Below are positions 10,004 to 48,805 of a stretch of DNA of 64,000 bases, in pieces. The position numbers and the translations under genes are program-made. Source of the DNA: Planctomycetaceae bacterium (GTDB lineage Bacteria; Planctomycetota; Phycisphaerae; UBA1845; UTPLA1); assembly GCA_011525745.1 (NCBI GenBank), contig WYBU01000015.1:1-64000 (forward strand). The letters are read 5' to 3'. Positions within the stretch are counted from its first letter, which is position 1. Each line of letters opens with the position of its first letter. Below the pieces are notes generated by a model. The model saw only the letters and a list, made by a program, of their open reading frames with translations, had not been told where the DNA came from and did no database searches.

Positions 10004-10046
10004 AGCGGGCGATGGGATTCGAACCCACGACGTCCAGCTTGGGAAG
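10004..10046 (-). other. Attachment core: 3' half of tRNA-Gly (CCC)
   Basis: The minus strand reads GCTTCCCAAGCTGG, then the T-arm GTGGGTTCGAATCCCA and the acceptor end CGCCCGCT. These are the anticodon loop (anticodon CCC), variable loop, T-arm and 3' acceptor of a tRNA-Gly with discriminator U. The 5' half is absent: the match stops at the anticodon stem, where tyrosine integrases typically cross over. In the opposite strand it encodes the well-known spurious peptide GDGIRTHDVQLGK. The integrase gene starts 123 bp away on its 3' side. Confidence 0.8.
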
Positions 10047-10104
10047 CGACCGGACCTACCGCGTTTTCGGCGCGGAAGTACTTTGGTTGCAGCATGTTAG
10101 CGGC

Positions 10105-16921: not shown

Positions 16922-17049
16922 GGGGCGCTGCGCCATGTGTGTGTCGCCGCCCCCTCGAGAAAAGACAAGCGCTGTAACCGTGTGACGATCCGGCCACTCT
17001 CGGTGCCTTCAAAGACTAGGGACTAGGCCGCCCTGAGACTGAGTCACTC

Positions 17050-19125: not shown

Positions 19126-19137
19126 GTGAGGCACTGG

Positions 19138-19158
19138 CCCCCCCGGCGCGTTGGGGGG
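19138..19158. terminator. GC hairpin between convergent genes
   Basis: CCCCCC at 19138-19143 pairs with GGGGGG at 19153-19158 around a short loop, 12 bp after the radical SAM stop and before the end of the convergent minus-strand gene. No T-tract. It may terminate from both sides. Confidence 0.45.
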
Positions 19159-19205
19159 ACCAAGAGCTGGCCCAGGTTACTTGCTCCGGGCTGAGTGGCG
19201 CGGCG

Positions 19206-19718: not shown

Positions 19719-19727
19719 GATTGACCA

Positions 19728-20825: not shown

Positions 20826-20837
20826 CGTAAATGACTC

Positions 20838-22838: not shown

Positions 22839-22877
22839 ATGGCGGTCACAGCATTAATCGACACACAGTCTATAGGG

Positions 22878-23426: not shown

Positions 23427-23554
23427 GCTATCACTGTCCTTGGTCCCAGGCAGCCACTGTATGCCTGTATGCCCGCACCTGGCGCCTATGCAAGTGCTCG
23501 GTCAGCGTTCACGAAAGACATAACTATGCGGTATCATTGTTACCATTTCCTTGG

Positions 23555-24634: not shown

Positions 24635-24654
24635 CGCGTTCCAACCTTATTCGT

Positions 24655-25785
24655 TTAGCCAGGATGTAGCCCTTCAGATACGCCCTTAGTGAGGACAACA
24701 TGTGTTTCCCCGAGAACGAAATGTGGCTCCAAATCCGTATTCCTAAAACTGTAGCACGATTCGCATTTTGGAAACTGACCACGGCACGACGGATAGTCCG
24801 AGGTATGCACCGCTCGCAAGTGTTGCCAAGCGGGTGAGTTCCATATCTGGACAAAAGACTGCTTGTTAAGGTCGCCCAACAACAAATCGTCAAAATGCGG
24901 TCCAATCAGGTGGTCGCAATATCCGACACGCCCGTCATAGGTAACGCAAGCGTAACCCCACGGGTGGAAACACGGCGCATTCCGAGGTGCCACACCCAAA
25001 GATCCGAGTGCTGTCAAACCGATAACTCGGACTTCAAGCTGGCCTGCGCGGTCAACGAGTCTGCCAACGGCCTCGTCCACCTGTGTAACATGCCCGCGAA
25101 GAGATAACGGTGAATTGTGAGATACTGATACTGCAGAGAGCCGTATTTCCGATATGCCACAGTCAGACGCGAGTTCGGCGAGACGGAAGAGATCCGTGCA
25201 TGCAGGGCGTTGGAGCGTGGCCTGTATGCAGAGTCGCTCCGTACTACGCCAACGCTCATAATAGTTGTCGGCAAGTTGTTTAAGGTTGCTGCGGATCAGA
25301 CGCGCGTTAGCCCCCCTACGCAATTGCTGTAAGGTCTGGTCGTTGGCGGAATCGATTGAGACAGCCACGTAGGCGCGAGCGTGGCATAGCTCCTTCAACG
25401 CATCTGGACAGCGAAACGACAGATTCGAGACCACGCGAATTGCGCTAGCAAGAGTTGCTGCACGATGTAAGATCCTAGGGAAGTCATTGAGGATTAGGCT
25501 CTCACCCCAACCGCGTAGATCTATAAGTTCGGCCGTGGGGAAGAGTTGCTCCTCCACCTTACGGAGGATCTCAGATGGCATCGATGTGCCGGCAACGGAT
25601 ACCTTGGAAGATCGACACATTGGACACGCGAGGTTACAGCCGCGTGTAAGTTCGACAAGCACGTAGCGTGGAAGACTTGTCAGCACACGAGCACCTGTCC
25701 GGTACTCTTTAAGATTCAGGATTGCGTTCTCGAGTACGCGCGTTGAGAGTGACGCTCTGCATGTTGAGGACATCGTTTCGTTCAT
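24655..25785 (-). CDS. Radical SAM/SPASM domain protein
   Basis: A 376-residue enzyme with Cys 50, 54 and 57 (CNLACPMC) for the radical SAM cluster, IDLRGWGESLIL in the GGE-like region and a SPASM-type C-terminus (CFHPWGYACVTYDGRVGYC, later FPKCESCYSF). SPASM enzymes install thioethers or C-C links in peptides, or act on sugars. The ATG overlaps the stop of the upstream AAA ATPase as TAATG with GGAGGA before it, so it is translationally coupled to the ubiquitin-like operon although its composition is lower in GC. Confidence 0.85.
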   Translation of the reverse strand: MNETMSSTCRASLSTRVLENAILNLKEYRTGARVLTSLPRYVLVELTRGCNLACPMCRSSKVSVAGTSMPSEILRKVEEQLFPTAELIDLRGWGESLILNDFPRILHRAATLASAIRVVSNLSFRCPDALKELCHARAYVAVSIDSANDQTLQQLRRGANARLIRSNLKQLADNYYERWRSTERLCIQATLQRPACTDLFRLAELASDCGISEIRLSAVSVSHNSPLSLRGHVTQVDEAVGRLVDRAGQLEVRVIGLTALGSLGVAPRNAPCFHPWGYACVTYDGRVGYCDHLIGPHFDDLLLGDLNKQSFVQIWNSPAWQHLRAVHTSDYPSCRGQFPKCESCYSFRNTDLEPHFVLGETHVVLTKGVSEGLHPG

Positions 25786-26858
25786 TAGCGTCCTCCATGC
25801 TTCTCAGGTGTCGACGCATAGGCTGGTTGAGTACTTCCTGCTAACCAGGGCTGGAAATCCTCCCAGTTGATGGTTCGGCCGAAACCGTCGGGCCGCAACG
25901 CAGCAAGGAATGCGCGATCCGCTGCTGCCGCGACAACGCCGACGAGTTCAGCGCCGCACGTGCCTTCAGTCTGCTCAGCGAGGAGGTCGAGATCGACGTC
26001 GGCAGATACGGGCCGGAATGCAAGGCTTGCTGAGAGAATTTGACGACGAGCATCGCGGGCTGGCAAACCGATGAGGACCTTGGCGTCGAACCGCCCCGGA
26101 CGCAACATCGCAGGATCAACCATGTCGGGCTCGTTCGTCGCTCCCATGAGAAGGAGAACGTGGCCGCCGGGGGCTTTCGCGAGTCCGTCTACCTCACCGA
26201 GGATCTGAGATACCACGCGCCTCATGATCGTCGATCCATTCCGGCGCCGGCTTGGCACGAGCGCCTCGACCTCGTCGAGGAACAGCACGGCGCGCTTCTG
26301 TTGGCGGAGGGTCCGGAAGAGCCGGTCCACGTTGGCCTCCGCTTGACCGACCGCGGCGGTCATTATATCGCTCGGCCGAACGTGGTAAAAGGCGGCGTCG
26401 ACTTCAGTTGCGACGGCTTTGGCGAGCATCGTCTTGCCCGTTCCGGGAGGGCCGTACAGCAGCAGCCCGCCGCCTTGGCGGATGCCGAAGCGACTCGCCT
26501 CGGCGGGGTAGAGGACCGGGAGGATCATTCGCAGCCGAATCTCCTGCTTGGCGTCCTCCAAGCCGGCGATGTCGGCGAAGCGCACGTTCGGCTTCTCCGC
26601 GATCGGCCGGAAATCGACGTGCGTTGCACTCTCGGCTATTGCGCACAGCACCACGGGCCGATCCGCGGCCGGCTTGGGAACTTGCAGGCGGCGATGCCGA
26701 ACGAGAGCAACGAATCGGCGGGCTATCCAGCAACCAACGCGATATGCCCCGGCGAGGACGTGCGATAGCGCGGCTACGGAGAAGCTGAAGATGAAGTCCG
26801 CGAGACCTCGCCCCCTTCGCGCCCATCGTCGGCGGCATGCTCCTATGACATATGCCAT
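25785..26858 (-). CDS. Membrane-anchored AAA ATPase (FtsH/CDC48-like module)
   Basis: A 357-residue protein with a probable membrane segment at residues 20-52 and one AAA module: Walker A GPPGTGKT (136-143), Walker B VLFLDEVEAL (Asp 195, Glu 196), sensor LLLMGATNEP and Arg finger region RPGRFDAKV. There is no fused protease. The pore-loop position that is aromatic in FtsH (FVG) and CDC48 relatives (YVG) reads AAVG, so the usual threading aromatic is absent. The upstream M50-like gene is 17 bp away. It probably remodels or extracts substrates for the neighbouring proteases (inference). Confidence 0.85.
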   Translation of the reverse strand: MAYVIGACRRRWARRGRGLADFIFSFSVAALSHVLAGAYRVGCWIARRFVALVRHRRLQVPKPAADRPVVLCAIAESATHVDFRPIAEKPNVRFADIAGLEDAKQEIRLRMILPVLYPAEASRFGIRQGGGLLLYGPPGTGKTMLAKAVATEVDAAFYHVRPSDIMTAAVGQAEANVDRLFRTLRQQKRAVLFLDEVEALVPSRRRNGSTIMRRVVSQILGEVDGLAKAPGGHVLLLMGATNEPDMVDPAMLRPGRFDAKVLIGLPARDARRQILSASLAFRPVSADVDLDLLAEQTEGTCGAELVGVVAAAADRAFLAALRPDGFGRTINWEDFQPWLAGSTQPAYASTPEKHGGR

Positions 26859-26875
26859 TGCCGTCCACCTTTCGG

Positions 26876-27589
26876 TCAGAAAGAACCGCCGCCAACCACG
26901 CCCAATCGAAGAACAACGAGTGACACGAAAAAGGCGATACAGGCAAGCACCACGGTCCAGTGGAGCGCCGACCGCCCGCTGAGGCGGGCCAGCACCTCGG
27001 CATCAGAACCCGTGCCGCTTGCGGTTACCGAGATCACCAGGAGCGTCCAGATCGCTCTGGCACCCTGCCAAATCAGAATCACGCCCATCAGGTTCAACAG
27101 GAAGCGCGTCGCCAAAGCACCGGGAAACAGCGAGCTGCACAATCCCAAAAGCGCCGCGACTGTGGCTCCGACGGCGGCCGTGTGCAGGTCGCCGGCCTTG
27201 AGCGTTGAAAGGGCGAGTAGTACGGCGAGCACCTGGAGCGTCAGGACCAGGGCATCGGCTTGGGCCGATCGAGCCAGGAAGACCGCGCCGAGCACAATCG
27301 TGCCGATGTAGCCGGCGGCCGCCACGGCCTTGCGGTTGCCCCCGCTGGTGATGGCCACTCCGCCCCAGTCACCCACGTGGAAACGATGAAAGTTGCCGCC
27401 GGTTAGCAAACTGACGACGCCGTGGCTGACCTCGTGGGCGTAAGTACCGACCTTCGTCGCGTGCCGCCGCCAGACCACTGGCAGCATGCACAAGAAGCCG
27501 GCGCTGGCAAGTGTGAGCAGCACGAATGTGCCGCCATTGTCGCCGGAATCGGCAAAGGCCATTAGATTGAGGTTTATGAACAAGTTCAT
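26876..27589 (-). CDS. M50-like intramembrane metalloprotease
   Basis: Starting at the ATG at 27589 (GGAGATCCC just upstream) gives 237 residues. HEVSH at 52-56 within TYAHEVSHGVVSLLTGGNF is the zinc-binding HExxH of the M50B-like family. Five or six hydrophobic segments follow. M50 enzymes cut within or near the membrane. A matching Asp ligand of an LDG-type motif is not obvious; ILIWQG is in a plausible region. Context with the AAA ATPase, E1, E2 and JAMM proteins suggests processing at the membrane. Confidence 0.78.
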   Translation of the reverse strand: MNLFINLNLMAFADSGDNGGTFVLLTLASAGFLCMLPVVWRRHATKVGTYAHEVSHGVVSLLTGGNFHRFHVGDWGGVAITSGGNRKAVAAAGYIGTIVLGAVFLARSAQADALVLTLQVLAVLLALSTLKAGDLHTAAVGATVAALLGLCSSLFPGALATRFLLNLMGVILIWQGARAIWTLLVISVTASGTGSDAEVLARLSGRSALHWTVVLACIAFFVSLVVLRLGVVGGGSF

Positions 27590-27630
27590 CGGGATCTCCT
27601 TCCAGTCTCGCTTGCGCGATCGGTGGCTCC

Positions 27631-29283
27631 TCACCGCGCCGACGCTTGCTGGAGAATGCGTGCCGCTTCCGCCTCGTAATCGATCTCGCCATTTACCGGC
27701 GGCGCAACAATCCGGCCTTGAGCATCGGCGCAGCGGGGCGGCGTCGACCGCAATGTCACCTCACGGATGCCTAGCGTGCGGCCTTCCACCATGAGGATGA
27801 AACTGACCTTTGTGCTTTCGCGGCCATTGACAAGCTCAGGCGGCACGAATTCTCCGGGTAGCAACTGGACCGACTTGCGGTCCAGCACCAATGTCCCCTC
27901 GACACCGCCGACGGGTTCGCCGTCGACACAGGTGCCCATCGTCATGCGAAAACCGGCGCGCGGGGAGGGAAGGTCCGAGGTCAACTTCACGACCGGGCAC
28001 AGAGCCCGCAGGTTTCGCAGATAGGCTACCCTTCCCACGGGGGTTGCCCGCCGGCCTGAACGGGCAATCCCCGCGATCTCAAAGCTATCGAGTTTCAGCC
28101 CGGCGAGAACCTGTTCAAAAGAAGTAATCACGAACGGGATTCGGGCGAGTTGGCGATCGTCTACGCTGAGGCAGAATTCCCATCGGCCGAGCTTTCGGGC
28201 GATGTCGTCGCCGGCGATGGGGCGACTCACCGGCGAGAACATCATTCGTCCATCGACCAGTTGCAGCGGCAACTCAGTGCTTTCAACGTTCTCGCGCTTG
28301 TCCACGTTCGCCAAATCCAGGCGAAGTCGCATGTCGACGAACTTGGAAGGATGAAAGCCCTTTGGCCGGATCACGGCCGTCGGGACTACCGCCTCGGTAT
28401 CCGGGAAGATCACCTTCTCCGGTGCGACCCTGTCGCCTTGCAAGGCGATCAGACGAACATCAGAAGCTTGCAGATCGGCAACGAGGTCCGCCCTCGTGAC
28501 GACCGCGATGGAAGTTGCGGCGAGGTACTTGCCGGTGTTCCTCAGGATCAGCCGCGTTTCCCAGGAACCTGAATGCGCCAGCAACTCGGCGATCTGGTCC
28601 AGCTGGAACCAAAGGCTCAGCCGCGGGGCACGCGGCATTTCGATTGATTCATGCAACGTCCGCCAGATCGCCCCATCCGGCCGACGGACTTCCATGTCGA
28701 TGTGCAGGGGGTAGACGTCCGGCCGGACAGGCAGAGCGAGGTGGGCCTTGATCGAGATGCTCTCCGAATCCGGGTATGCCTTGCCGTCGGGCTGATCCTG
28801 ACCGTCACGGCACTGGACACGATGGATCAAGCTGACGGCGCGGACCTGCCGGAACTTCATCTGGAAGCGCCAGATGCGCCACGCCCGATCCAGGCGTCTG
28901 ATCAGCCAGATCAGGAAGAAGATGGTCAGCAGGCCGGCGAAGATCGACGCCGCATAAGGCAACGCGGCGTGGATCAGGGCGCGGACGCGGGCGCGATTGA
29001 GATTGCTTCGGGTCTGCTCAGCCGAACCGGGAAGCCGAAGTGACTCGCGGTAAGCGTCCACCGCTTCGTCGAACCGGCCGCAGGATTCCAGAGCAACGCC
29101 GAGGTTGTTGTATCCCTCGGCCGTGGGCAGCTCGGCGTTCGCCTGCTGGTACAGTTCTGCTGCGCGCGCATGGTCGCCAGCCGCAAGGGCTTGCGCTGCC
29201 TGATCCAGCGGGTGCTCCGCCAGGCAAGCGCACGCTACCGCCAGTACGCTGAAGATCGCCGGGATAGACGTTGCCTTCGTCAT
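27631..29283 (-). CDS. Secreted/membrane TPR protein with beta-sandwich repeats
   Basis: From ATG 29283, 550 residues. A signal-like N-terminus (MTKATSIPAIFSVLAVACACLA) is followed by TPR units (LAAGDHARAAELYQQA, YNNLGVALESCGRFDEAVDAY) and a transmembrane segment near residues 108-130 (YAASIFAGLLTIFFLIWLI). The remaining 400 residues look like three related beta-sandwich units whose ends read WETRLILRNTGKYLA, WEFCLSVDDRQLA and VSFILMVEGRTLG. It probably presents protein-binding surfaces on both sides of the membrane and acts as scaffold for the operon's conjugation proteins. The family is not recognised. Confidence 0.65.
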   Translation of the reverse strand: MTKATSIPAIFSVLAVACACLAEHPLDQAAQALAAGDHARAAELYQQANAELPTAEGYNNLGVALESCGRFDEAVDAYRESLRLPGSAEQTRSNLNRARVRALIHAALPYAASIFAGLLTIFFLIWLIRRLDRAWRIWRFQMKFRQVRAVSLIHRVQCRDGQDQPDGKAYPDSESISIKAHLALPVRPDVYPLHIDMEVRRPDGAIWRTLHESIEMPRAPRLSLWFQLDQIAELLAHSGSWETRLILRNTGKYLAATSIAVVTRADLVADLQASDVRLIALQGDRVAPEKVIFPDTEAVVPTAVIRPKGFHPSKFVDMRLRLDLANVDKRENVESTELPLQLVDGRMMFSPVSRPIAGDDIARKLGRWEFCLSVDDRQLARIPFVITSFEQVLAGLKLDSFEIAGIARSGRRATPVGRVAYLRNLRALCPVVKLTSDLPSPRAGFRMTMGTCVDGEPVGGVEGTLVLDRKSVQLLPGEFVPPELVNGRESTKVSFILMVEGRTLGIREVTLRSTPPRCADAQGRIVAPPVNGEIDYEAEAARILQQASAR

Positions 29284-29293
29284 GGTTGCCCTG

Positions 29294-30178
29294 TTAGTTT
29301 CCGCTGCACACTGCCTTGGCAAGGATGTCCTCGGCGGCCGCGTTGATCTGGGCCTCAGTCATGCCGCCGGCGCCGCAAATCAAACAGCACGGATCTCGAG
29401 GGATTTCCCAGATGTCGCTCGAAAGCATCCGCGGAAATAGGCCCTCGACCCGTCGGTTCCCGAACAAGACGTAGTTGCCCTTGAAATCCGGCGCCGAATC
29501 ATGTCGGCCGAGCATAGTCAGCAGCCCAACGCGGGCCTGAATCAAAGCGATCTGCGCGATGTCCAAGTTCAGGGCGGCCGTGGAATTCTCTATGCCATCT
29601 GGGTTCGTGTAGTCGAACGTCTGGGGCGCCTGCGACTCATCGAACCGTCCAGAGCGGTTCAGAAAGGCGGCCATGCAGGCGTAGCAGGCACCGCCGTCGA
29701 CTACCCTTCCAACTTCACCGCCACAGCCACCGTCGAAGACGCCAGCGAAAACCAGTGTGACGCCAGCCGCGACGGCCTCCTCATTGATCACGTTCTTAGC
29801 AGGCTCGTTGTCGACGCAGCAGTGCACCTGCGTGCAACGGCGAATAATCGTCGCAAGCCGATCCCGGTCCTTGACGACATCCATCGAGATGACCTCGATT
29901 TCGCAGCCGGGGTTGCTATTGAGGATGTGGTCCCGAAGAGCTTCCCCCTTCGGTCGGCCCAGATCCTTGTAACCGAGGACGTGGCGGATGATATTGTGTT
30001 CCTCCAGGCATTCATCTGGCCGGTCAATAAGGATGATCGTGCCGACGCCGAACCGAGCCGCTTCCTCGGCGACTCGCGCGCCGCCAGACCCCACGCCAAT
30101 GATGGCCCATACTTGCTGTTGGGCGACCTCGGGTTTCAGAATCGCCCGCGTCCTCTTGAACAATTCGTCACGGTTCAT
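29294..30178 (-). CDS. E1-like ThiF-family adenylyltransferase
   Basis: A 294-residue ThiF/MoeB/E1-type protein. The nucleotide site is IIGVGSGGARVAEEAARFG (Gly 28, 30 and 33). Other family marks are Asp 52, Arg 65 in EHNIIRHVLG and GRPKGEAL. Cys pairs for zinc are GACYAC and CCLICG. The family activates the C-terminal carboxylate of a ubiquitin-like protein by adenylation; a catalytic Cys could be one of the HCCVD pair. It lies next to E2-like and JAMM genes, so it is the presumed activating enzyme of the system. Confidence 0.88.
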   Translation of the reverse strand: MNRDELFKRTRAILKPEVAQQQVWAIIGVGSGGARVAEEAARFGVGTIILIDRPDECLEEHNIIRHVLGYKDLGRPKGEALRDHILNSNPGCEIEVISMDVVKDRDRLATIIRRCTQVHCCVDNEPAKNVINEEAVAAGVTLVFAGVFDGGCGGEVGRVVDGGACYACMAAFLNRSGRFDESQAPQTFDYTNPDGIENSTAALNLDIAQIALIQARVGLLTMLGRHDSAPDFKGNYVLFGNRRVEGLFPRMLSSDIWEIPRDPCCLICGAGGMTEAQINAAAEDILAKAVCSGN

Positions 30179-30221
30179 GATTCGCCTCTTCAGTTGGCCG
30201 ATCGGCCGTCGAAGCCCACGT

Positions 30222-30629
30222 TCAGTTGCTCACGGCGTCCGGCACAGGCCACTTGCTCGTGCTCAGCCACACCAGGAACGCATAGAACCAACGCTGCGCC
30301 ACACCGACACACAACGCAGCAGTGTCTTTGCTCGGGCACCAGATATTTCGATTGCGTTTGCTTTCGCTGGGATGGCGCCAGCAAATGCGGTTGCCGGGCA
30401 GGAGATGCGGAGTACCGCTCGGCAGAGAAGTTAGCGCCACGATGTCCGGCGCATCCGACGGGTAGCCGGACGGATAGACGATCTTGATGGGCAGCCGATT
30501 CCCGCCCTCGGCGTGGAGCGTGAGCTCCCAGTGGAGTTGCCCGGATGCATCGCTGCGGAGTCTGGGCTCAAGGGCCGACCAGCGCTCCATCATTGCCGCG
30601 TGCTCCAAAACGAGTCGTTTCGAATCCAT
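30222..30629 (-). CDS. E2-like ubiquitin-conjugating fold protein
   Basis: Starting at 30629 with GAGGAAG upstream gives 135 residues. It has the E2-like KIVYPSGYPSDAPDIV, a PHLLPGNRICW stretch in which His 75 and Cys 83 occupy the places of the E2 His and active Cys, and a C-terminal helix-rich part (AQRWFYAFLVWL). This matches the prokaryotic E2-like proteins found beside ThiF and JAB genes. It would accept the modifier from the E1. It is smaller than eukaryotic E2 (about 150) by a little. Confidence 0.75.
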   Translation of the reverse strand: MDSKRLVLEHAAMMERWSALEPRLRSDASGQLHWELTLHAEGGNRLPIKIVYPSGYPSDAPDIVALTSLPSGTPHLLPGNRICWRHPSESKRNRNIWCPSKDTAALCVGVAQRWFYAFLVWLSTSKWPVPDAVSN

Positions 30630-30687
30630 GTCATTCTTCCTCGGGCAGACCAAGCCCATGCCGTACCAGCCGATGTGTCAGCAGTTC

Positions 30688-30879
30688 TCACGGTTGGTAG
30701 TGCGTGTCGAATTTCCCAATTCGGTTCCGGCGATCATCGGGTGAGGCACTTACAGGTGCTGTGCCTTCCAATTCGCCTGTCTCGCTGAAGGCCAAGCCTT
30801 CGCTACTGGATCGGGACTGTTCCATCGCTCGCCGGATTTCCTCGGCGCGCTCCTTCGTCAAAGGGGTAAAGCTTCCCAT
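30688..30879 (-). CDS. Small disordered protein, 63 aa
   Basis: The ATG at 30879 lies inside the end of the JAMM gene (22-bp overlap) with GGAGAT seven bases before it. The protein opens with a helix (PLTKERAEEIRRAMEQSR) and continues as a Ser/Glu/Asp-rich disordered tail, ending HYQP. It has no beta-grasp pattern and no terminal Gly-Gly. It is encoded between the JAMM peptidase and the E2, exactly where a modifier or adaptor could be expected. It could be a Pup-like modifier needing processing, or merely an adaptor; both are inference. Confidence 0.6.
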   Translation of the reverse strand: MGSFTPLTKERAEEIRRAMEQSRSSSEGLAFSETGELEGTAPVSASPDDRRNRIGKFDTHYQP

Positions 30880-32384
30880 GGCTCATCTCCAATCGGCCCG
30901 GATTCCTTCATCCCCACCGACGCGGACCGCCCGCCAGCGGGGGAATCAATCCTGTTGCCGGCGCATACGCTGCGCCGAGCACTCATTTCTCGTTCGATGT
31001 CAAGAATGATGGGCGTGAACCACACGAGGCCGGGCGTCCACGCGCCATTCAGATACGAGGGCTGGAACTGCATCACCTGATGCGCGTTGTCCTCCACGAA
31101 CACGTCCGGCCGTTGTCGCGGGTCGGCCGAAAAAGCGATCATGGCCGTGAATCCACCAGTCTTGTGCTTCATCACGATGCACGGGCGGCGGGCCTGATCG
31201 CTAGTTGCTTGTTGGACCAGCCCCATGTGGTAGTTCGCCAAGCGACGCAGATTCTCGAAGTCCAACCGCGTCCGCACCGGGTCGGCTGCTGCGAAACCTC
31301 GAAGTTCAGCCGCCGCCGAAATGACCGCCCCGTCCACGACTTCCGGACGAAAGTGACGGTACTGGTACGCGCTCGCCTTCCCCAAGTAATAGAAGTCGAG
31401 CTTCAAACCGTCGTGATAAAGACTGTCAGGAGACCGGTTACCGCGATGAGTCGATGCCACCGTGGCAATGGTGAACACCATCTCCTGGCTGTGGCTCTCG
31501 CGCACGTTGGCGGAGTCAGTTCGCAGATCGCCGGCGGAGCAGGAATCCAAGCTGCCTGGATGCAGATGCGCATCGCCGATGAACATCGCATCGGCGTCGA
31601 TGAGCTGGAGAAGTTCCAGTTCACGCTGCTGATACTGACGGTCAGCCTGGTGATGTCCGCCGGAACGGACGGAACTGGGTCCCTCATCGATCAATCCGCT
31701 GACCATCATGACCCGGGAAGGTCCGTCGCCGAGGATCTTCCCGACCAGTGCGTAACCGGTTTCCACACCGCCGCGCTGCCGCCGCGATTCGTTGATGCCT
31801 TTTACCAGGCGGTCGATCACGCCGGACAGAAACTGCACACGTGGAATTGCTGGCTGGCGCGTAGGGCGCGGAGTCGGCGATACCAGCGGCCGAGTATCAA
31901 CGACGGACGACTGGTTCGTGGAGGCCCGATCCGCAATATCCTGACGCACTGTCGAGTCAGGCGAATCGAACGGCACTTCGGCTTGCGAACTACCCGATGC
32001 GAGCCGTGCCAATCGCACCCACATGAAGGCGATGCACCCACCCAACAAAGCGACAAGGGCAATTGCAACTCCCTGAGCCCGCGTGAATGCAGCTTCCTGT
32101 CGCGTGACTCGTCGATCCAGATCGCCCAGCCAATCCAGTGCCGTGAAGGCCGTCGGGGCGCTGGTCTGCGCCGTGGCCGCCATCTCCGGCGACTTGGATT
32201 CCTCTGGGTCCGCCGATGCATGCGCACCTACCGGCCCGGACTGCGTAACGCCGTAAGGTGCGGCTGCCGGCCGCTGGGCTGTCTCGTCGCCACGGCGCGC
32301 TGCCCATTCCTGCGAATAGGTGGGTGTCGTTGCTGCCGCTAGGACTGCAAATCCGGTAATCAAATTCAGAATTTGGCGGTTCAT
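30858..32384 (-). CDS. Membrane-anchored JAMM/MPN metalloprotease
   Basis: A 508-residue protein with a signal-like N-terminus (residues 1-25), an extracytoplasmic low-complexity stretch, a transmembrane helix at about 104-128 (GVAIALVALLGGCIAFMWV) and then a JAB1/MPN domain. The JAMM zinc site is complete: Glu 208 (VETGYALVG), His 273 and His 275 (DAHLHPG), Ser 283 and Asp 286. This fold removes or processes ubiquitin-like modifiers. With N-out/C-in topology the peptidase faces the cytoplasm. A C-terminal 150-residue region may be another domain. Confidence 0.86.
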   Translation of the reverse strand: MNRQILNLITGFAVLAAATTPTYSQEWAARRGDETAQRPAAAPYGVTQSGPVGAHASADPEESKSPEMAATAQTSAPTAFTALDWLGDLDRRVTRQEAAFTRAQGVAIALVALLGGCIAFMWVRLARLASGSSQAEVPFDSPDSTVRQDIADRASTNQSSVVDTRPLVSPTPRPTRQPAIPRVQFLSGVIDRLVKGINESRRQRGGVETGYALVGKILGDGPSRVMMVSGLIDEGPSSVRSGGHHQADRQYQQRELELLQLIDADAMFIGDAHLHPGSLDSCSAGDLRTDSANVRESHSQEMVFTIATVASTHRGNRSPDSLYHDGLKLDFYYLGKASAYQYRHFRPEVVDGAVISAAAELRGFAAADPVRTRLDFENLRRLANYHMGLVQQATSDQARRPCIVMKHKTGGFTAMIAFSADPRQRPDVFVEDNAHQVMQFQPSYLNGAWTPGLVWFTPIILDIEREMSARRSVCAGNRIDSPAGGRSASVGMKESGPIGDEPWEALPL

Positions 32385-32401
32385 CGTTCTTCCCTCGGTT
32401 T

Positions 32402-33025
32402 TTACTGAACGCTCTTGGCGTCGCGGGTGATTCGCTGAAATCGAACCTCCGTTGACTCGTCACCCGTTTCGGCTCTCAGTTCGTCCGACGGCCTTATTGG
32501 TTCTCCGGCCTCGACTAGGTTCACGCCGTTTCGGTTGGCGATCTGCCGAGCCTCCAACGACGCAAGTTGTGCCTCCAACTCCGCCAGGTTCTGGTAGCTC
32601 TCGGCCTGTTTGCGGTCCTCAGCGTCGACCGATCGAACCAGTGCAAAGGCGACCGGGTTTTGCTCCTGGAGACGTTTTAGATCTCCGGCATCATCCGCCT
32701 CACGAAGTCGTTCGCGGAGCTGCCTGAGCAAGTCCTGGCGTCTCTGAGCCGCGGTGATCAGCCGATCCTTCGCTTCGGTGATCCGCCGCCTCACTGCTTC
32801 CACGCGACCGGATAGATCGGAAGCGTAGACCTCAGCAGGCGAAGGACGGCGAGCCAGCACGACCCGAGGCCAAACCTTCGCCCACAGCGGATCGGCCAAT
32901 CCGCCTTGATCCGCCAGAGCGATCAGGCAGGAGACTCCCGCGATCACACAAACTGCCATCGCCATTTTCCGAATCATCTTTGCGGCGCTCCTCAGCGCTG
33001 GCGGCGTGCCTGTGAGGCAGTTCAT
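32402..33025 (-). CDS. Signal-anchored coiled-coil protein, 207 aa
   Basis: The start at 33025 overlaps the upstream stop as ATGA; an ATG at 32977 is an alternative. A hydrophobic stretch (MAMAVCVIAGVSCLIALA) acts as signal or anchor. Residues 70-170 form a coiled coil rich in Arg/Glu/Leu (DRLITAAQRRQDLLRQLRERL; LAELEAQLASLEARQ). The tail is charged. No family known. It pairs with the next upstream coiled-coil protein in the operon. Confidence 0.62.
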   Translation of the reverse strand: MNCLTGTPPALRSAAKMIRKMAMAVCVIAGVSCLIALADQGGLADPLWAKVWPRVVLARRPSPAEVYASDLSGRVEAVRRRITEAKDRLITAAQRRQDLLRQLRERLREADDAGDLKRLQEQNPVAFALVRSVDAEDRKQAESYQNLAELEAQLASLEARQIANRNGVNLVEAGEPIRPSDELRAETGDESTEVRFQRITRDAKSVQ

Positions 33026-33894
33026 TCCGCGTCGCCCTTGATCGCCTCAACGGCCGACGTCCGCGACTGTGGAGCCGAAGGGACGGAGCCGTCCTGCTGA
33101 ACGTCGCCAAGCATCCGCGTGATCTCAGCCGATGCATCCTGGGTCACAATCATTGGTGCGTAGTCGATGCGGAACTGGCCCATGCCGGCTGAAAGCCTCG
33201 CGTTGGCGTGACGTTCCTTGGTAGAGACCCTTCGCTCGAAGTTCCGCACGGCCTTTTCGAGTTCAGAGTCGGCGGTCAGCGGCGCACCCGCGATGGCGTT
33301 GGCAAGCTGGGCGACCTGAAGCCGGATGTCGGCGTTGACATTCCTCTGTTCCAGACGAGCCATGCCGCTCTTCAACTCGGCCAACCGCTTTCCAGCCTCG
33401 GCCAATCCGGCCCGGCCCTGTTTGATTGCAGCGTCAAGATCAGCCAGCAAGCTTTCATTGAATGAAACTCCCTCTCGCATCCGATCGACTTCCTGCACAC
33501 GTTCCAACGCGTCGGCGTTCACCTCAGCAAAGGAATAAGTCTGCCGGCCAATCACATACTTCTGGCGCTTCTCGTCAAGCAATGCCTTGATGCGCTTCAG
33601 GAGGTCCATCTCGGTCTGGAGCTTGGACTGCGCGTCTTCAATGCCGCGCGCCGTTGCCTCCCGCCGCCCCTCCAGGTCGGCGACCTTGTCCTCGAAGGCG
33701 AGCACATTCTCCTGCTCCTTCTGAATCAGGGCCTCGATGCGGGCCCGCTCCAGTCGCATGGGAGCGCGATCATCGGCCTCCTGGTTGACCATGTCCCGCG
33801 CCCCGGCCACATAGGATGTCGTCTTCTCCCAACCGAGCACGATGACCGCGAGCACGAAGACGATGCCCACAGCAATGACGATTCGCTTCAACAT
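33022..33894 (-). CDS. Membrane-anchored coiled-coil protein, 290 aa
   Basis: A single N-terminal transmembrane helix (residues about 4-22, IVIAVGIVFVLAVIVLGW) is followed by nearly 200 residues of coiled coil (RARIEALIQKEQENVLAFEDKV; LLKRIKALLDEKRQK). The tail includes ITRMLGDVQQ and is disordered. It is reminiscent of PspA-like or membrane scaffold proteins, but I would not assign a family. Stop and next start overlap by 4 bp (ATGA), so the two coiled-coil proteins are translated together. Confidence 0.65.
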   Translation of the reverse strand: MLKRIVIAVGIVFVLAVIVLGWEKTTSYVAGARDMVNQEADDRAPMRLERARIEALIQKEQENVLAFEDKVADLEGRREATARGIEDAQSKLQTEMDLLKRIKALLDEKRQKYVIGRQTYSFAEVNADALERVQEVDRMREGVSFNESLLADLDAAIKQGRAGLAEAGKRLAELKSGMARLEQRNVNADIRLQVAQLANAIAGAPLTADSELEKAVRNFERRVSTKERHANARLSAGMGQFRIDYAPMIVTQDASAEITRMLGDVQQDGSVPSAPQSRTSAVEAIKGDAE

Positions 33895-34003
33895 GGTTCG
33901 TTACTCCTTGAGTTTCGCTCAACCGTTTCCGCCATCACCGGGGATGGCACTCCATTTCTTTTTTGAGTGTTGGAACTACCACTGTCCAATGCACCCGTCT
34001 TTG

Positions 34004-35032
34004 TCACACCAACGTTTTCGTATCTGACTCCCCCCAGTCGACGCCGTGGCGGAGTTTCCGCTTCATCTCATCGAACTCGCTGGCCGAGATCGCGTCCTTG
34101 TCCAGTTCCGACAGCAGCTGCTCCAACACATCATCTGCCAGGCGAACCCGGGCGGTGAGCTTCGTCGAGCCGTCGTAATCGCCACGAAAAATGAATCCCA
34201 ACTGTTCCAACCCGGCGACGGCCTCGACGACCTTGCGGCAGTTGCCAGGGTAGGACTGCGGCGAGAGCAGCTGAGCGAGATCGCGCACCGAAATCCCATC
34301 GAAAGGATGAATGGCCAAACCGAAAAGCTGGTCGATCAGAATCCCCTCGCACAGCACGCGCTGCACGTCATCCAGGTCGTTCGCAATGGGTCCAAGCGGA
34401 TCGAGGCCAGCAGGGGTGACGGCTGCCTTGGAGCGGTTGATCGCGGCCTGCCGGAGGACGGCGTCCAGGGCGCCGTCGGCGGAGTATGGGGCGCAGCGAT
34501 CGTCGTCGCCGAAGCCGATCTTCAATCCGCAGGCTTGGGCCGCCGCCTTGCGGAGGCGCCACTCAGCGAGCAGATCCGTCAGGCGATCACGCTTACAGCG
34601 GTAGGCCGGCGCGAGGCCGATTTTCTTGGCGCCGCCGGACACGGCCTGCGACGCTGCGCCCGCCTGATGAATAAGGGCGTCGACACGAACCGACGGCTCC
34701 CGAAGGATCGCACCGATGAGGACCTCGAAGGCGATGACCTGATCGCCGACCCGCAGTTTCCGCACGATTGCAGCCAGCGCCGAAGTCATGGGCATCGGAT
34801 CCGCAACGACCTCGAAGCGCTCGGGGGCCGTCACGCCGTTCAGCACGGCCTGCGGCGTCGCGCTGCCGACCTGGCGCAGGCAAAGCGCCACCTCTTCCGG
34901 ATAGACGAGGATGGCCGCCTTGAGGACGTGAATCGCGTCCAACCGGCTGCTGCCCTCGCTCCGAGCGATGGCCTTTCCCAGGCCGACGGCTTTGTCCGCC
35001 TTCTCATCCAGATTGACGTTGGCCTTACCCAC
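34004..35032 (-). CDS. Clp-N-like repeat plus winged-helix adaptor
   Basis: GTG 35032 follows GGAGGAGA at a good distance; 342 residues. Two Clp-N-type repeats are visible: LGKAIARSEGSSRLDAIHVLKAAIL with EEVALCLRQVG, and IVRKLRVGDQVIAFEVLIGAIL with VRVDALIHQAG. After residue 220 a winged-helix-like region follows (ISVRDLAQLL, KVVEAVAGLEQLGFI). In ClpA/ClpC the Clp-N domain docks adaptors and substrates, but this protein has no ATPase module. I infer an adaptor that brings substrates to the AAA ATPase of the same operon. Confidence 0.6.
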   Translation of the reverse strand: MGKANVNLDEKADKAVGLGKAIARSEGSSRLDAIHVLKAAILVYPEEVALCLRQVGSATPQAVLNGVTAPERFEVVADPMPMTSALAAIVRKLRVGDQVIAFEVLIGAILREPSVRVDALIHQAGAASQAVSGGAKKIGLAPAYRCKRDRLTDLLAEWRLRKAAAQACGLKIGFGDDDRCAPYSADGALDAVLRQAAINRSKAAVTPAGLDPLGPIANDLDDVQRVLCEGILIDQLFGLAIHPFDGISVRDLAQLLSPQSYPGNCRKVVEAVAGLEQLGFIFRGDYDGSTKLTARVRLADDVLEQLLSELDKDAISASEFDEMKRKLRHGVDWGESDTKTLV

Positions 35033-35050
35033 GGGGATCTCCTCCGCGAA

Positions 35051-35566
35051 CTAGAGCGTCTCCTCGTCTTCCGCCTCCGGCACGGGCTGGCGGAACTGCT
35101 CAATGAACTTCTTCGCGACCTCCGCCGGCACGCCGGCATCGACCATCCCGACATGGGTCGCCATCAAATGGACTTCGTGGGTAGTCTCGATGGCGATTCC
35201 CACCAGCCGGGCGAATACCTCCGGGCTGGGATCAGCCGCGCCCCCGTCCTGGCAGGCGTGGTTGATCTCGAACATCACCTCTCCGTCGCGGGCGTCGGTG
35301 CCCACCTTTCCGATAAGCAGGCGGTAGTTGATATCCTGCAAGATGCGGGGCAGTTCCGAGTTGGGCGAGCGAACCTGGGCGATTTCGGGAACGCGAATCT
35401 TGAGGGCCAGCTGGCCCTCGATCGGATCGACGATCAAGACGTGCGGCTCGGCCGGATTGATGCGGTTGGCGAAGCTCGCCCGCAAGTACTGATCCTTGCA
35501 GACCTCGATCTCCTTGATCTCATCCTGCTTTTCCAGAAGTTCCTTGCACGTGTCCTTAGTGATCAT
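35051..35566 (-). CDS. YbjN-like (type III chaperone-fold) protein
   Basis: The ATG at 35566 has GAGGAGATAACC before it and is preferred to the upstream Met at 35596; 171 residues. The fold pattern of strands and helices (ASFANRINPAEPHVLIVDPIEGQLAL; PRILQDINYRLLIGKV; EVMFEINHACQD) resembles YbjN/secretion-chaperone-like proteins. It is the first gene of the operon. A chaperone or regulatory role for other members is inferred. Confidence 0.55.
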   Translation of the reverse strand: MITKDTCKELLEKQDEIKEIEVCKDQYLRASFANRINPAEPHVLIVDPIEGQLALKIRVPEIAQVRSPNSELPRILQDINYRLLIGKVGTDARDGEVMFEINHACQDGGAADPSPEVFARLVGIAIETTHEVHLMATHVGMVDAGVPAEVAKKFIEQFRQPVPEAEDEETL

Positions 35567-35596
35567 GGTTATCTCCTCGCCAGGTACATTCCGCAT

Positions 35597-39764: not shown

Positions 39765-41702
39765 TCATGGTCCCTGATAGTATGGGATCAAGCTTGGAGC
39801 AGTAGGCTCTCCAGCGAGTCGTCGCTCGGAGAAGTTCACGAGTGTTTCTGTCGGTTCAACGAGGTCTGAGTCGATAAGCAAGAACTGTGTCGGATTCCCA
39901 GTTGACGCGCTCGCAATCCGGTATATCTCACGATAGAGCGACTGCACCAGCTCGGGATTTTCGTCGTCACTGATATTCTTTGTCGGACTATCGATGATCA
40001 GCACCGTTGGGATGGGCATGTCTCGCTCGCGAGCGACTTCGTGAACTGCCAGCGCGTAGCACACATTGAAGAGCGTTTTCTTTCCGCCACTGCCGGTATC
40101 CCAGAAGCCCCACTCCTGCCCACCATGAACGACAGTCGGCTTCCAGCTTCGTGGATCGAGGACCACTTCGTCATCATCCGACACTCCGGGGAAACCCACA
40201 GCAAGCATTATCTGCTTGAACCTGTCTGCGACGGACCGAACGTTTTCGTCAGCATCTCGCAGGCGTAGCCGCTCCTCTTCAATTGAGCTACGGAGACGGT
40301 CGATGCGCCCCTGCAAGCTACCAGCATTTTCTTCAAGCTCGTTGATGGCACGGGGCATGGCCTGCAGCCGATCGAGGGAGCGCAGCCGTTCTGCAAGGGT
40401 GGCAATCTCCCGATCGACAACACGGATACTCTCAACGAAGGCTGAGTCATACCGTGCCAATTCACTCTGTAGCTGCTGATCCAGGCGAGCCTTTTCAGAC
40501 GTCGTCCGCTCAAGCTGCCTCAACGATCGCTCAAGCGCTCGATTCCGACGGGCGATGGAGTCTCCGATCTGGTCGATGCGATCGTTCAGTTCGCGGCGAG
40601 TGGCCTCCAACTCCACGCTGGACCTCGCAGCATCACGCATTGCTGGATTCCCGCAGAGCATGCAAGCTTCGGCGGAGTCGGGCCGGTCGCTTATGTCAAC
40701 TCCACACTGTGGGCACCGAGAGTATTTGACTCCTTCGAGCACTCGCCCGGCTTGTTCCGATCTGTCGGCCTTCACTTTGGCTGTGATGAGTTCCGCCCTC
40801 AATGCCTCGTGCTCTGCCAGAGCCATTTGGGATGCTGAGATAGACTCCTGCAGATCCGAGACTTGGGCGCTCAACTCGCGCAGCCGATGCCGCAGTTCGT
40901 CAGTCGGGTGAATTCGGGTCTGGCGTTCCTGTTCCAGCCTGGAACGGCGGGATTCTGCTTCGTGTAGCTCGCCTTGCGCTGCCTCTATCTGGCCCGCTAC
41001 ATCCAGCTCCGAACCAAGCTCGAAGCGGTCCATGAAGCGACGAATTTGTGCCACTGCCTCACGCGTCCCTTGTTGCTCGTCAACAGTCCGATACAGATCG
41101 GCTTCAAGCTCGCTGAGCCGTTCCGAGTACAGACCGGTGAAGAAGCGCATCGCGTCCTGGCTCTTGCGACCGCGGAACGGGTCCTCTAGTCGAAAAAAGG
41201 AGGAATCGAGATGTGTCTGGTCCAGATAACAGTATCGCCAGATATCTCGGAAGCTGAGCCGGATCATTGGAGAGTCGGGGTCGCGCGTTCTTTGACGCAC
41301 CCTGATCGGCGTTACACCCGATAGGCGAAACAGCAGGTCGCTCAGATTGAAAATATCGTCCCTGACGATAGGCGCATGAGTCGGAGAAATGGGTGCGTTG
41401 ACCGATCCGATCTCGTTCTCGCCATGAGCCCAAGTTACGCGTACGGCCTGGGTGTCCTCCGCGCCGCGCTCCAACGTGCATTCGAAATCCCCGAGCTGAA
41501 CTGACAGAATCGCAGCAACGAACTCCTGCTGAATCGCTGGTGTGCGTTCGAGGTCGCCGCCTAGGCAGTAGTCGATGAGACGTGCGACCGTCGACTTGCC
41601 TGTGCCAACCGGCCCATACAGGAACGTTACCGACCCGGAGAAGTCTAGCCGCTCCGTCGACTGACGCGTACGCACCAGGAGATGCCGCAGCCCCATTCTC
41701 AT
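39765..41702 (-). CDS. SMC/Rad50-like ABC ATPase (ABC-3C-type)
   Basis: A 645-residue ATPase with Walker A GPVGTGKS at residues 30-37, long coiled-coil arms, a zinc-hook-like CPQCG plus CMLCG pair at the tip near residues 320-345 and the signature-like DTGSGGKKTLFN. Walker B reads VLIIDSPTKN, in which the usual catalytic Glu after Asp is Ser, as I recall from ABC-three-component ATPases. It is 4 bp overlapped (ATGA) by the middle component gene. It probably senses DNA or nucleoprotein and controls the upstream nuclease. Confidence 0.75.
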   Translation of the reverse strand: MRMGLRHLLVRTRQSTERLDFSGSVTFLYGPVGTGKSTVARLIDYCLGGDLERTPAIQQEFVAAILSVQLGDFECTLERGAEDTQAVRVTWAHGENEIGSVNAPISPTHAPIVRDDIFNLSDLLFRLSGVTPIRVRQRTRDPDSPMIRLSFRDIWRYCYLDQTHLDSSFFRLEDPFRGRKSQDAMRFFTGLYSERLSELEADLYRTVDEQQGTREAVAQIRRFMDRFELGSELDVAGQIEAAQGELHEAESRRSRLEQERQTRIHPTDELRHRLRELSAQVSDLQESISASQMALAEHEALRAELITAKVKADRSEQAGRVLEGVKYSRCPQCGVDISDRPDSAEACMLCGNPAMRDAARSSVELEATRRELNDRIDQIGDSIARRNRALERSLRQLERTTSEKARLDQQLQSELARYDSAFVESIRVVDREIATLAERLRSLDRLQAMPRAINELEENAGSLQGRIDRLRSSIEEERLRLRDADENVRSVADRFKQIMLAVGFPGVSDDDEVVLDPRSWKPTVVHGGQEWGFWDTGSGGKKTLFNVCYALAVHEVARERDMPIPTVLIIDSPTKNISDDENPELVQSLYREIYRIASASTGNPTQFLLIDSDLVEPTETLVNFSERRLAGEPTAPSLIPYYQGP

Positions 41703-42247
41703 GGGCGGATTGCCTCGTTCGATCGCAGCGTGACGATTTCCGGAAACGTGTCGTAGATGAAACGCATCAGGTTCGTCGCCGTCATGTCAAAATGCCGCTT
41801 GAGAAGACTAGCACGACGGGCGTATGCGTCGAACATCGGATCGGCCATTAGGCCCGCCGCAACAGTCCGGCCTCTCTCGGTTGCAGCGATGACGACCTTG
41901 CGCCCCTCGATGGCGATGGACGCGAGGCCCTTGCTGACCAGAATATTCAGGAACTCTCGGTATCGGTGGTCCCAGGGGCCGAAACGATAACGGACCATTT
42001 CTGATTCGACGCTTATACGCTCATGGTCTTCCAACTGAACGTCACGCGTTGAATGGGATTTCGCGGCCAACGCGCGTTCCAGCATGACAGGGTAGCGAAG
42101 CAGGAAGTCGAGTTTGGCGAGTTTCGTCAGCCCTTCGACATGACCCGTACCGTCCGGACCAGAAAAGGTCGCGAGCAGGACAAGAAGTCTAGCCGCGTGA
42201 AGGTCGGGAGCGGCATCAAGCTCGGCGATGGTTTCAACGAGGTCCAT
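41699..42247 (-). CDS. ABC-3C middle component-like protein
   Basis: The start at 42247 overlaps the upstream stop as TAATG with GGGAGG before it; 182 residues. It is helix-rich with a winged-helix look: LTKLAKLDFLLRYP, YRFGPWDHRYREFLNILVSKGLASI, VIAATERGRTVAAGLM. The length, position and pattern (KLDFLLRYP, a G-W-D-H-RYRE segment) match the ABC-3C middle-component type that joins effector and ATPase. It is overlapped by 4 bp with the ATPase gene, so all three proteins are coupled. Confidence 0.65.
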   Translation of the reverse strand: MDLVETIAELDAAPDLHAARLLVLLATFSGPDGTGHVEGLTKLAKLDFLLRYPVMLERALAAKSHSTRDVQLEDHERISVESEMVRYRFGPWDHRYREFLNILVSKGLASIAIEGRKVVIAATERGRTVAAGLMADPMFDAYARRASLLKRHFDMTATNLMRFIYDTFPEIVTLRSNEAIRP

Positions 42248-43503
42248 TACATGGCCTCCCAACTTCGGTCGGTGCTCCATTGAACCTTGCACTGAGCGGT
42301 CAATGAAAAGGCGACGCCTTCGAGGTGCTCGTCTGCACAGTCATATAATTGGTCTCTGTTCGCGCGGCGCTGCTGGAAGCGCTGCTTGAGATCCTCTCGC
42401 ATCGCGAGCCCGAAGTGCCCCTCACGCCTTTGCGTCGCCTCAAACGCGCGGGCCGCATCAGTGAGGACGAGCGTGCGGATATGGTCATAGCGCGCGAGCC
42501 CCTTGATATTGCCGTACTGCTTGGTCCACTTGATTCCGAGATAGTCAGCCTTGTTGCGCAGATCTTCCGCCGAGTTCCGCGACACCGCCGAGAATCCGCC
42601 GGCATCAAGCTTCTTGTGCATCAACTCCGTGCTTCCTTGTCCAGGGGGCGTGAACGCTTGAGGGTCTCCGGCCAATGTGGCTGTTGAGTCGCGGCCCGTT
42701 TCCAGGATGAGGGATAGACGTTCGGAGGTGATGCGCTTGCCGTTGATACGAGCACAGAGCTCAGCCTGCTCAGCGTTCACGACCGCCACGATGTATGCGG
42801 GCAAAAGCTGCTGATGATCGAGTGAGGATGCTCGGCCGCATTCGTCAATGAGCGCCCGAGCAGCCCGTCGCACAGCATCGTGCGAACAGTCGGCTGCCGG
42901 TGGCCAGCAATCAGCGAGCGTGTTGATGAGCCGCATGGTGACATCACGAAGCTTCGGCAGGTCCGCCCGGGCCATGGTCTTGGACATAGCCGCGAACGCC
43001 ACAGAGTCGGTGACCTCGGCCTTGCGTGCGACGCGGCGGAGCCAGGTCGCTACATTACTCGGAAGCTGATCGACGCTAGTCGCATCTGCGATCTGCTTGA
43101 GCACATGTGCAAAGTCCTGTCCGTTGCCCGCGGCGTACAATGGATGATTGGTCAAGAAGCAAAAGCGACGAAGTTGGCCGGGGAAGTCTGCATCGAGTTT
43201 CGCAAATCGGGCACAAGCCGTAAGCACCGGCTCGTCGCCGGCTTTCCATGGAGGCTGATCGTCACCACGAGTCTTAACTTGATGTCCTGTGAACGCGCCG
43301 TCGCGGTGCTTCAGCAATACGTCCTCATGATGTTCGCAAAAAACTTCGACTACGTCTTCGGTTTCATCGAGAAGCATGCAGCATACGATGGCAGCCCATG
43401 TCCACTGAAACCGATACCGATTCGCTGTCTCGTCACCCGGGTCGCCGCGGGCAATCATCGCATCTGGTTGCGGTGCGGTGCTCATCTCTGTTGGGGCTCC
43501 CAT
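42247..43503 (-). CDS. Cap4-like/DUF4297 endonuclease effector
   Basis: A 418-residue protein. The N-terminal nuclease domain starts DPGDETANRYRFQWTWAAIVCCMLL and has VEVFCEHHEDVLL and FTGHQVKTRG (QVK at 75-77), the E-D-QxK layout of DUF4297/Cap4-type PD-(D/E)xK enzymes. The remaining 300 residues are helical and probably sense or couple. In CBASS Cap4 a SAVED domain would follow; I see none, so the ABC partner is the likely trigger. It starts 9 bp after the Res gene, Met 7 being an alternative start. Confidence 0.72.
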   Translation of the reverse strand: MGAPTEMSTAPQPDAMIARGDPGDETANRYRFQWTWAAIVCCMLLDETEDVVEVFCEHHEDVLLKHRDGAFTGHQVKTRGDDQPPWKAGDEPVLTACARFAKLDADFPGQLRRFCFLTNHPLYAAGNGQDFAHVLKQIADATSVDQLPSNVATWLRRVARKAEVTDSVAFAAMSKTMARADLPKLRDVTMRLINTLADCWPPAADCSHDAVRRAARALIDECGRASSLDHQQLLPAYIVAVVNAEQAELCARINGKRITSERLSLILETGRDSTATLAGDPQAFTPPGQGSTELMHKKLDAGGFSAVSRNSAEDLRNKADYLGIKWTKQYGNIKGLARYDHIRTLVLTDAARAFEATQRREGHFGLAMREDLKQRFQQRRANRDQLYDCADEHLEGVAFSLTAQCKVQWSTDRSWEAM

Positions 43504-46500: not shown

Positions 46501-46565
46501 CAGTCGGCGACGGCTTCGACCGCGTCGGTCTGAAAGGCTTGCTTCTTGAACTTGAGCTTCATCAA
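43512..46565 (-). CDS. Type III restriction subunit (Res)
   Basis: A 1017-residue protein: SF2 helicase with Walker [10 protein letters not shown] (TGTGKT at 104-109), DEAD-box-like [20 protein letters not shown] (motif III) and motif [15 protein letters not shown]-terminal PD-(D/E)xK domain is present (YNPDWAIAF, then FIAETKGS). This is the ATP-dependent translocase and nuclease of type III systems, and works with Mod. A PtuA/PtuB pair lies between Mod and this gene. Length is typical. Confidence 0.93.
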
Positions 46566-46607
46566 TCCTGCTTTCCGCCCATCCGGTTTGCTCGTGTATT
46601 GTTGCCC

Positions 46608-48748: not shown

Positions 48749-48805
48749 GAAACAACCTTTCAGGCGTGGGCCAAGGATTGGTTGTCTTGTTATGGCTGAA
48801 GCTAA

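Follow-up and report, generated by a model that had tools for sequence, protein, structure and literature searches.

Here, an operon of eleven open reading frames (ORFs) was examined that runs along the minus strand, from position 35596 down to 25785, of a 64,000-base window. The window comprises bases 1-64000 of the 97,873-base contig C132 (WYBU01000015.1), which belongs to a 5.4-Mb Planctomycetaceae metagenome-assembled genome (MAG) of the class Phycisphaerae. We interpret the operon, tentatively and at somewhat less than an even chance, as encoding a conjugation system of E1, E2 and JAMM that is tethered to the membrane and horizontally mobile, and that would most likely act as an anti-phage or mobile-element defence module. 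All of the ORFs of the tightly spaced minus-strand run described in the initial annotation are present at 25785-35596. Spacings between neighbouring genes range from -29 to +43 nt, with the single exception of 109 nt between the gene encoding a 342-aa protein and that encoding the coiled-coil protein cc290. The stop codon of the last gene, which encodes an AAA ATPase, shares one base with the start of a radical-SAM gene, and the transcript may therefore continue beyond 25785. A scan of the operon for promoters and terminators revealed no excess over shuffled sequences.

The E1-like protein (294 aa; 29294..30178, minus strand, as are all operon genes) is a ThiF/MoeB/UBA5-type enzyme with a GVGSGG motif and two CxxC pairs, which matches Pfam ThiF at 2.4e-25 and, in the PDB, MoeB and UBA5. 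Its best PADLOC profile is that of the CBASS E1-E2 protein (6.6e-34), and among NCBIfam models it matches NF058523 at 5.8e-15 with 54.8 bits (cut-off 320) as well as ThiF/MoeB models. Across four homologues, no cysteines are invariant other than C92 and those of the two CxxC pairs, such that no canonical E1 catalytic cysteine can be made out. The E2-like protein (145 aa; 30222..30659), with a predicted catalytic C93 within the motif RICW and H85, has no Pfam match, but is matched by the PADLOC E2 model at 1.1e-4 and by CBASS models also. A four-sequence E2 profile retrieved 51 distinct sequences from the PDB at E<=1, practically all of which are E2 enzymes by name, the best being UBC9 (0.0075) and UFC1 (0.025). 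Alignment with a 6A-like E2 gave an hhalign probability of 96.8, and His85 and Cys93 are invariant among the homologues aligned.

The JAMM/JAB peptidase (508 aa; 30858..32384) scores weakly in Pfam (Prok-JAB, 0.011) and is matched by PADLOC JAB (4.6e-5), NF058523 (0.0067) and CBASS JAB models. Its predicted catalytic residues are E208, H273, H275, S283 and D286, within the motif HLHPGSLDSCSAGD. The HxHP-x6-SxxD pattern is retained in 4/4 homologues, the upstream glutamate lies in ETG (EVG in G484, a distant planctomycete), and a transmembrane (TM) helix, at residues 99-129 in the window protein, is present in every homologue. The E1 GxGxxG, the E2 Cys and His and the JAMM E...HxH...SxxD motifs are all complete, and the three enzyme assignments made originally from motifs withstood the profile searches. 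The assignments are supported by profiles together with conserved predicted catalytic residues, and the nearest profiles are those of the CBASS and 6A-MBL defence systems. It could be argued that E2 and JAMM have been misidentified and that the ThiF protein acts instead as an adenylyltransferase for a sulfur carrier or a cofactor, since the E1 also matches ThiF/MoeB models and both E2 and JAMM fall below Pfam cut-offs. However, the E2 profile retrieves E2 enzymes from the PDB, none of the homologues lacks any part of the JAMM motif and the genes are arranged as in E1-E2-JAB systems; this explanation is already largely refuted, and we regard it as highly improbable.

Three membrane-associated proteins accompany the enzymes. 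The coiled-coil proteins cc290 (33022..33894) and cc207 (32402..33025) each have a predicted N-terminal TM helix (residues 1-29 and 17-44, respectively), as was initially proposed, and the protein encoded downstream of the E1 (563 aa; 27631..29322) combines tetratricopeptide repeats (TPR; Pfam 2e-7) with two hydrophobic segments, 14-40 and 115-145, that flank the repeats and precede a large C-terminal domain, in keeping with the TPR and membrane parts of its earlier description.

The neighbourhood is not unique to this contig. All eleven genes are present in the same order in Phycisphaerae bacterium Bin_14R (G058), which belongs to the same order but another family. Divergence between the two full copies is mosaic, with dS values of 0.01 for E2, 0.05 for E1 and 0.51 for the AAA gene, which is the most diverged of all. 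A patch at approximately 29.0-31.5 kb is 97-99.8% identical to G058, with flanks at 78-95%, which suggests that the JAMM-p63-E2-E1 core may have recombined recently between the two families. The core is found also in a Hydrogenedentes MAG, on two short contigs that carry cc290-cc207 and cc207-JAMM-p64-E2-E1-TPR, the cc207 homologue being split across both and the cc290 homologue lying at 4171-5043 of locus L046. Identities between the Hydrogenedentes and window proteins are 62% for the 63-aa protein p63, 62% for E1, 61% for E2, 47% for JAMM, 45% for cc290 and 34% for TPR. Additionally, G484 (9.1-Mb genome) has the order JAMM-p65-E2-E1-membrane protein, with no M50 or AAA gene beside it. The JAMM-p63-E2-E1-TPR-type order is thus kept in three independent backgrounds in two phyla, and cc207 and cc290 in two of these, and this recurrence across genomes delimits the conserved unit as cc290-cc207-JAMM-p63-E2-E1-TPR. 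The system is rare, being found in 2/114 genomes of the order, 2/397 of the class and 1/68 of the Hydrogenedentota. The viral contigs searched held no relatives of E1, E2 or p63, and the plasmid E1 matches examined belong to CBASS type II or to a JAB-E2-E1 operon accompanied by nuclease and TIR genes, and were set aside as not being relatives of this operon.

The remaining four genes stand on either side of this unit. Upstream are genes encoding a YbjN-domain protein (181 aa; 35051..35596; Pfam PF10722, 2.6e-6) and the 342-aa protein (34004..35032), which is soluble, 92% identical to its G058 counterpart and assigned to no family. The latter had been proposed to be a Clp-N-like adaptor, a proposal that we abandon: the protein has no Pfam, PDB or hhalign match, its alignment with a ClpC N-domain was equalled or beaten by 798 of 1000 shuffles, and its AlphaFold2 (AF2) model has a pLDDT of 36. 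Downstream, an M50B-type intramembrane metalloprotease (252 aa; 26876..27634; PF13398, 2.8e-22) with an intact HEVSH motif is encoded by a gene that overlaps the TPR gene by 4 nt, and is followed after 17 nt by the gene for a classical AAA ATPase (357 aa; 25785..26858; Pfam AAA, 1.2e-33; PADLOC IetA, 4e-30) with Walker A and B motifs and an N-terminal hydrophobic segment. The YbjN, M50 and membrane AAA designations of the initial annotation accordingly stand.

The membership of these four genes in the conserved pathway is not supported. Among the copies found, only the two nearly identical ones from Phycisphaerae have them, and a search of the Hydrogenedentes and G484 genomes for M50, the 342-aa protein, YbjN and cc290 returned only cc290, in Hydrogenedentes, and a weak M50-like match elsewhere in G484. 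An almost evenly balanced possibility is that the eleven genes represent two or three neighbouring modules, of which only cc290 to TPR would be the conjugation system, with YbjN and the 342-aa gene, and M50 and AAA, as unrelated cargo. Consistent with this, the 109-nt gap divides the 342-aa gene from cc290, the Hydrogenedentes copy begins at cc290 with no YbjN or 342-aa gene upstream, G484 has neither flanking module, and M50 and AAA are far more diverged than E2 and E1 between the two full copies. Conversely, the overlap and close spacing that join TPR, M50 and AAA in the window, and an identical order in G058, argue for a single unit, and the Hydrogenedentes contig stops before the position at which M50 would be expected. 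The expectation that E1, E2, JAMM, M50 and AAA would be found together is therefore borne out in all copies for the first three and in the two Phycisphaerae only for the last two. Likewise, the idea of a single membrane-linked ubiquitin-like pathway is upheld for the core by its conserved order, and not for M50, AAA, YbjN or the 342-aa protein.

Attention is drawn in particular to the 63-aa protein p63 (30688..30879), which is encoded directly after JAMM, its start overlapping the JAMM end by 22 nt, and which is a real gene: dN/dS is about 0.1-0.15, indicating purifying selection, and homologues are conserved. Identity to the G484 homologue is 44%, with an alignment score 12 standard deviations above shuffles, and a p63 profile search of the 397 class genomes yielded two real matches, in the same two genomes that have this E1. 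A further p63-like match, in G078 (E 4e-4), was discarded as antisense noise within a 703-aa ORF. The tail of the protein follows the conserved pattern N-x-[IV]-G-[KR]-F-x-x-H-Y, in which Gly55 is invariant, and the C-terminus of the window protein reads THYQP. The AF2 model (pLDDT 68) consists of a helix (9-25), a hairpin (27-42) and a disordered tail (52-63). The notion that p63 is a beta-grasp ubiquitin-like protein (Ubl) was considered and is unsupported, given this helix-hairpin-tail prediction of modest pLDDT and the lack of a PDB fold match; nor did Pfam identify a beta-grasp domain in any of the 11 operon proteins. Occupying the place expected for ubiquitin, p63 is nonetheless the best candidate for the modifier, and would probably be cut by JAMM after Gly55.

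It is a serious possibility, although one that we doubt, that p63 is not the modifier, and that E1 and E2 conjugate another operon protein or a host protein of ThiS/MoaD type, with p63 serving as a cofactor or regulator of E2 or JAMM. There is precedent for a non-ubiquitin modifier in CBASS, where Cap2 conjugates the C-terminus of the cGAS-like enzyme itself (PMC10097602), and p63 has neither a Gly-Gly end nor a beta-grasp fold. On the other hand, p63 occurs strictly together with the enzymes and shows a like degree of conservation, and none of the other operon proteins has, as judged by eye, a conserved flexible C-terminus resembling that of a modifier.

A comparable arrangement was encountered in genomes G268 and G466 and on Mesorhizobium plasmid pMspAR10a, where a protein of 57-60 aa (p60) is encoded directly upstream of E2-E2-E1-JAB. 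As in the window, the small protein precedes E2 immediately, the E1 is 30% identical and the E2 is related; unlike the window, these operons have a soluble JAB, two E2 proteins, MBL (in G268 and Mesorhizobium) and, thereafter in one of them, a patatin phospholipase gene. The p60 tail consists of an invariant LGGEY and a short variable end. A multiple sequence alignment hinted at a tail common to p60 and p63, [IVG]-G-[KRE]-[FY]; hhalign and shuffle tests gave no support for homology, and the resemblance is therefore kept as an analogy of position only. Weak archaeal and Dinoroseobacter matches to p60 and p63 were attributed to chance. Several further observations concern these relatives. The operon of the Mesorhizobium sp. 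AR10 plasmid (L068 5001-9907) reads p57-E2-(Phd/YefM+E2-like)-E1-JAB-MBL-patatin, the second E2-like protein having an N-terminus of Phd/YefM antitoxin type, which occurs also at locus L013. Stand-alone genes with the p60 motif (PNGEIR...LTxREnLGGEY and a variable tail) were found on IMG/VR viral contigs (L077-L083), with no E1, E2 or JAB in the 7-12 kb read, and in L083 the frame extends into a longer protein; it is possible that these viral copies are decoy modifiers. Other planctomycete JAB-E2-E1 operons were seen at L014-L017. In three of them (L015-L017) a gene for a large ATPase, which is DUF87/HerA-like in L017, comes after that for the E1, and a weak YbjN-domain protein is encoded upstream in L017, a second link between YbjN and a ubiquitin-like system.

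A working model can be proposed in which p63 is the modifier. The membrane-anchored JAMM would trim p63, probably after Gly55 in N-x-[IV]-G-[KR]-F, and would also strip it from targets. The E1, with no conserved catalytic cysteine beyond the CxxC pairs and C92, would adenylate the exposed glycine and hand p63 to Cys93 of the E2, which in turn would join it to targets that the TPR protein, cc290 and cc207 keep at the membrane, these three perhaps sensing or gathering substrates. Where an AAA ATPase and an M50 protease are also encoded, as in the longer Phycisphaerae version, these two may then extract or cut tagged membrane proteins. The stronger proposition, that p63 is a new, non-beta-grasp modifier of Pup size that is matured by a membrane JAMM and conjugated by a true E1 and E2, with p60 as a second case, we consider unlikely, if far from negligible.

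A number of points weigh against the model and against the broader interpretation of the operon. p63 lacks a Gly-Gly end, is not predicted to adopt a beta-grasp fold and has no PDB fold match; the evidence on p63 as a whole comes from four sequences, and the Gly55 cut likewise from four related sequences of which two are nearly identical; and p60 and p63 are unsupported as relatives at the level of sequence. The G484 core has no M50 or AAA gene next to it, and the search for M50 in the Hydrogenedentes genome was negative. Moreover, every copy is in a MAG, where faulty binning could have placed it with the wrong host.

With regard to mobility, a 44-bp att copy, corresponding to the 3' part of tRNA-Gly, is present at 10004..10047; its identical (100%) partner, at contig positions 97802-97845 and thus beyond the window, forms part of an intact tRNA-Gly(CCC) gene. 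This gene lies at the contig end with an integrase beside it, both within contig positions 96436-97873, and a tyrosine integrase (8709..9881, minus strand; Pfam PF00589, 3.6e-14) adjoins the att copy in the window. The repeats, tRNA and integrases together define an 88-kb integrative element, 10004-97845, which contains the operon and has at its tRNA the features of such elements, namely the tRNA gene, the 3'-end repeat and the terminal integrase. A further integrative element stands in tandem to its left. The same 44-bp att sequence is found at G058:C32 1819-1862, and tandem elements at tRNA-Gly(CCC) are common to the two Phycisphaerae families. The GC content of the contig is 0.60, against 0.65-0.67 for the genome, its tetranucleotide profile is far off, and the G058 contig similarly differs in composition from the genome to which it is assigned. 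Since the tRNA, att and integrase structure is in place and the composition is foreign to both bins, plain contamination is less likely to account for the shared contig than is a shared mobile element.

The element is rich in defence genes. Lamassu-like LmuB, LmuC and LmuA (39765..43503, minus strand) score 1e-84, 9e-14 and 1e-17 in PADLOC, and are followed by a type III restriction-modification system (43512..50686, minus strand) with Septu PtuB and PtuA nested between the R and M genes (REase_III, 1075 bits; MTase_III, 4e-230; PtuB, 7e-80; PtuA, 6e-113). The island, which spans 39765-59731, holds also an SNF2/HKD helicase and a mad2-like ORF of 1686 aa. A second ubiquitin-like system, comprising Multi_ubiq, Prok-E2_E and a JAB-ThiF fusion, is located on the element at contig positions 92147-94312. 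Defence is the most probable role of the operon, judging from this context and from the families to which its enzymes are closest. The operon might otherwise be an envelope quality control or regulated intramembrane proteolysis machine of the element with no part in defence, which would suit the membrane anchoring of JAMM, TPR, cc290 and cc207, the presence of M50B and AAA in two copies and the sugar/radical-SAM cassette next in line. This is distinctly unlikely in view of the patchy distribution and foreign composition, the defence neighbours and the closeness of the enzymes to defence families, all of which favour a defence module.

As regards other cargo of the element, the sugar/radical-SAM cassette (14400-25785) encodes rSAM-SPASM, APH kinase, carbamoyltransferase, DUF6625 and glycosyltransferase proteins. 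Glycosyltransferase-like genes replace it in G058 (C32 6182-10325), and, whichever set is present, its first gene overlaps the stop codon of AAA. A GrpE-like gene and a divergent Hsp70-like gene are found at contig 75473-78018.

The 6A-MBL anti-phage system, in which E2, E1 and JAB are fused and accompanied by MBL (row 6a of Iyer et al. 2006; NF058523/NF058524), has the same three predicted activities and is similarly sporadic and mobile; here, however, the activities reside in three separate proteins with no adjacent MBL (Pfam), the NF058523 score is far below the cut-off, and a membrane JAMM is joined by p63, TPR and coiled-coil membrane proteins. Type II CBASS (Cap2 E1-E2, Cap3 JAB) shares profile matches for E1, E2 and JAB, whereas the operon encodes no CD-NTase/nucleotidyltransferase or CBASS effector, and its E1 and E2 are separate ORFs as opposed to a Cap2 fusion. 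Bil (BilABCD) is alike in having separate E1, E2 and JAB genes and a small protein in one operon, but no beta-grasp Ubl of BilA type was found here, the 63-aa protein being predicted as helix, hairpin and tail, and the membrane partners are many. With respect to Bub, compared here through structure chains, the E1 domain weakly matches BubCD (7.5e-5), yet no Ubl, no BubCD-type fusion and no CapK/CapS, CapH/CapP or CapW regulators were seen. No PRTRC model featured among the NCBIfam matches of E1, E2, p63 and JAMM, NCBIfam being a library that should include the PRTRC models. Finally, the Pup system has a very small protein of modifier size with a disordered C-terminus, but uses PafA/Dop in place of E1-E2-JAMM; p63 lacks the GG[EQ] end, and no PafA/Dop match was found in the operon (Pfam).

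Iyer et al. 2006 (PMC1779556) describe the E1-E2-JAB operon types 6a-6e, in none of which a membrane-bound JAMM is joined by M50, AAA, TPR or coiled-coil partners; the terms YbjN, M50 and AAA were not found in that paper. Nor was a description of such an operon found in the open-licence papers searched. The operon fails the defining features of Bil, CBASS and 6A-MBL, membership of Bub or PRTRC is unsupported by the searches run, and it is best filed as a new form within the prokaryotic E1-E2-JAB systems.

The known bacterial E1-E2-JAB systems act on a beta-grasp modifier or, in CBASS, on the cGAS-like enzyme, and for some of the described operon types we know of no modifier gene. In this operon, a 63-aa protein of another fold may fill the place of the missing modifier, with the machinery fixed to the membrane. 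If true, E1-E2-JAMM chemistry would not be tied to the ubiquitin fold, and a membrane branch would be added to bacterial ubiquitin-like immunity.

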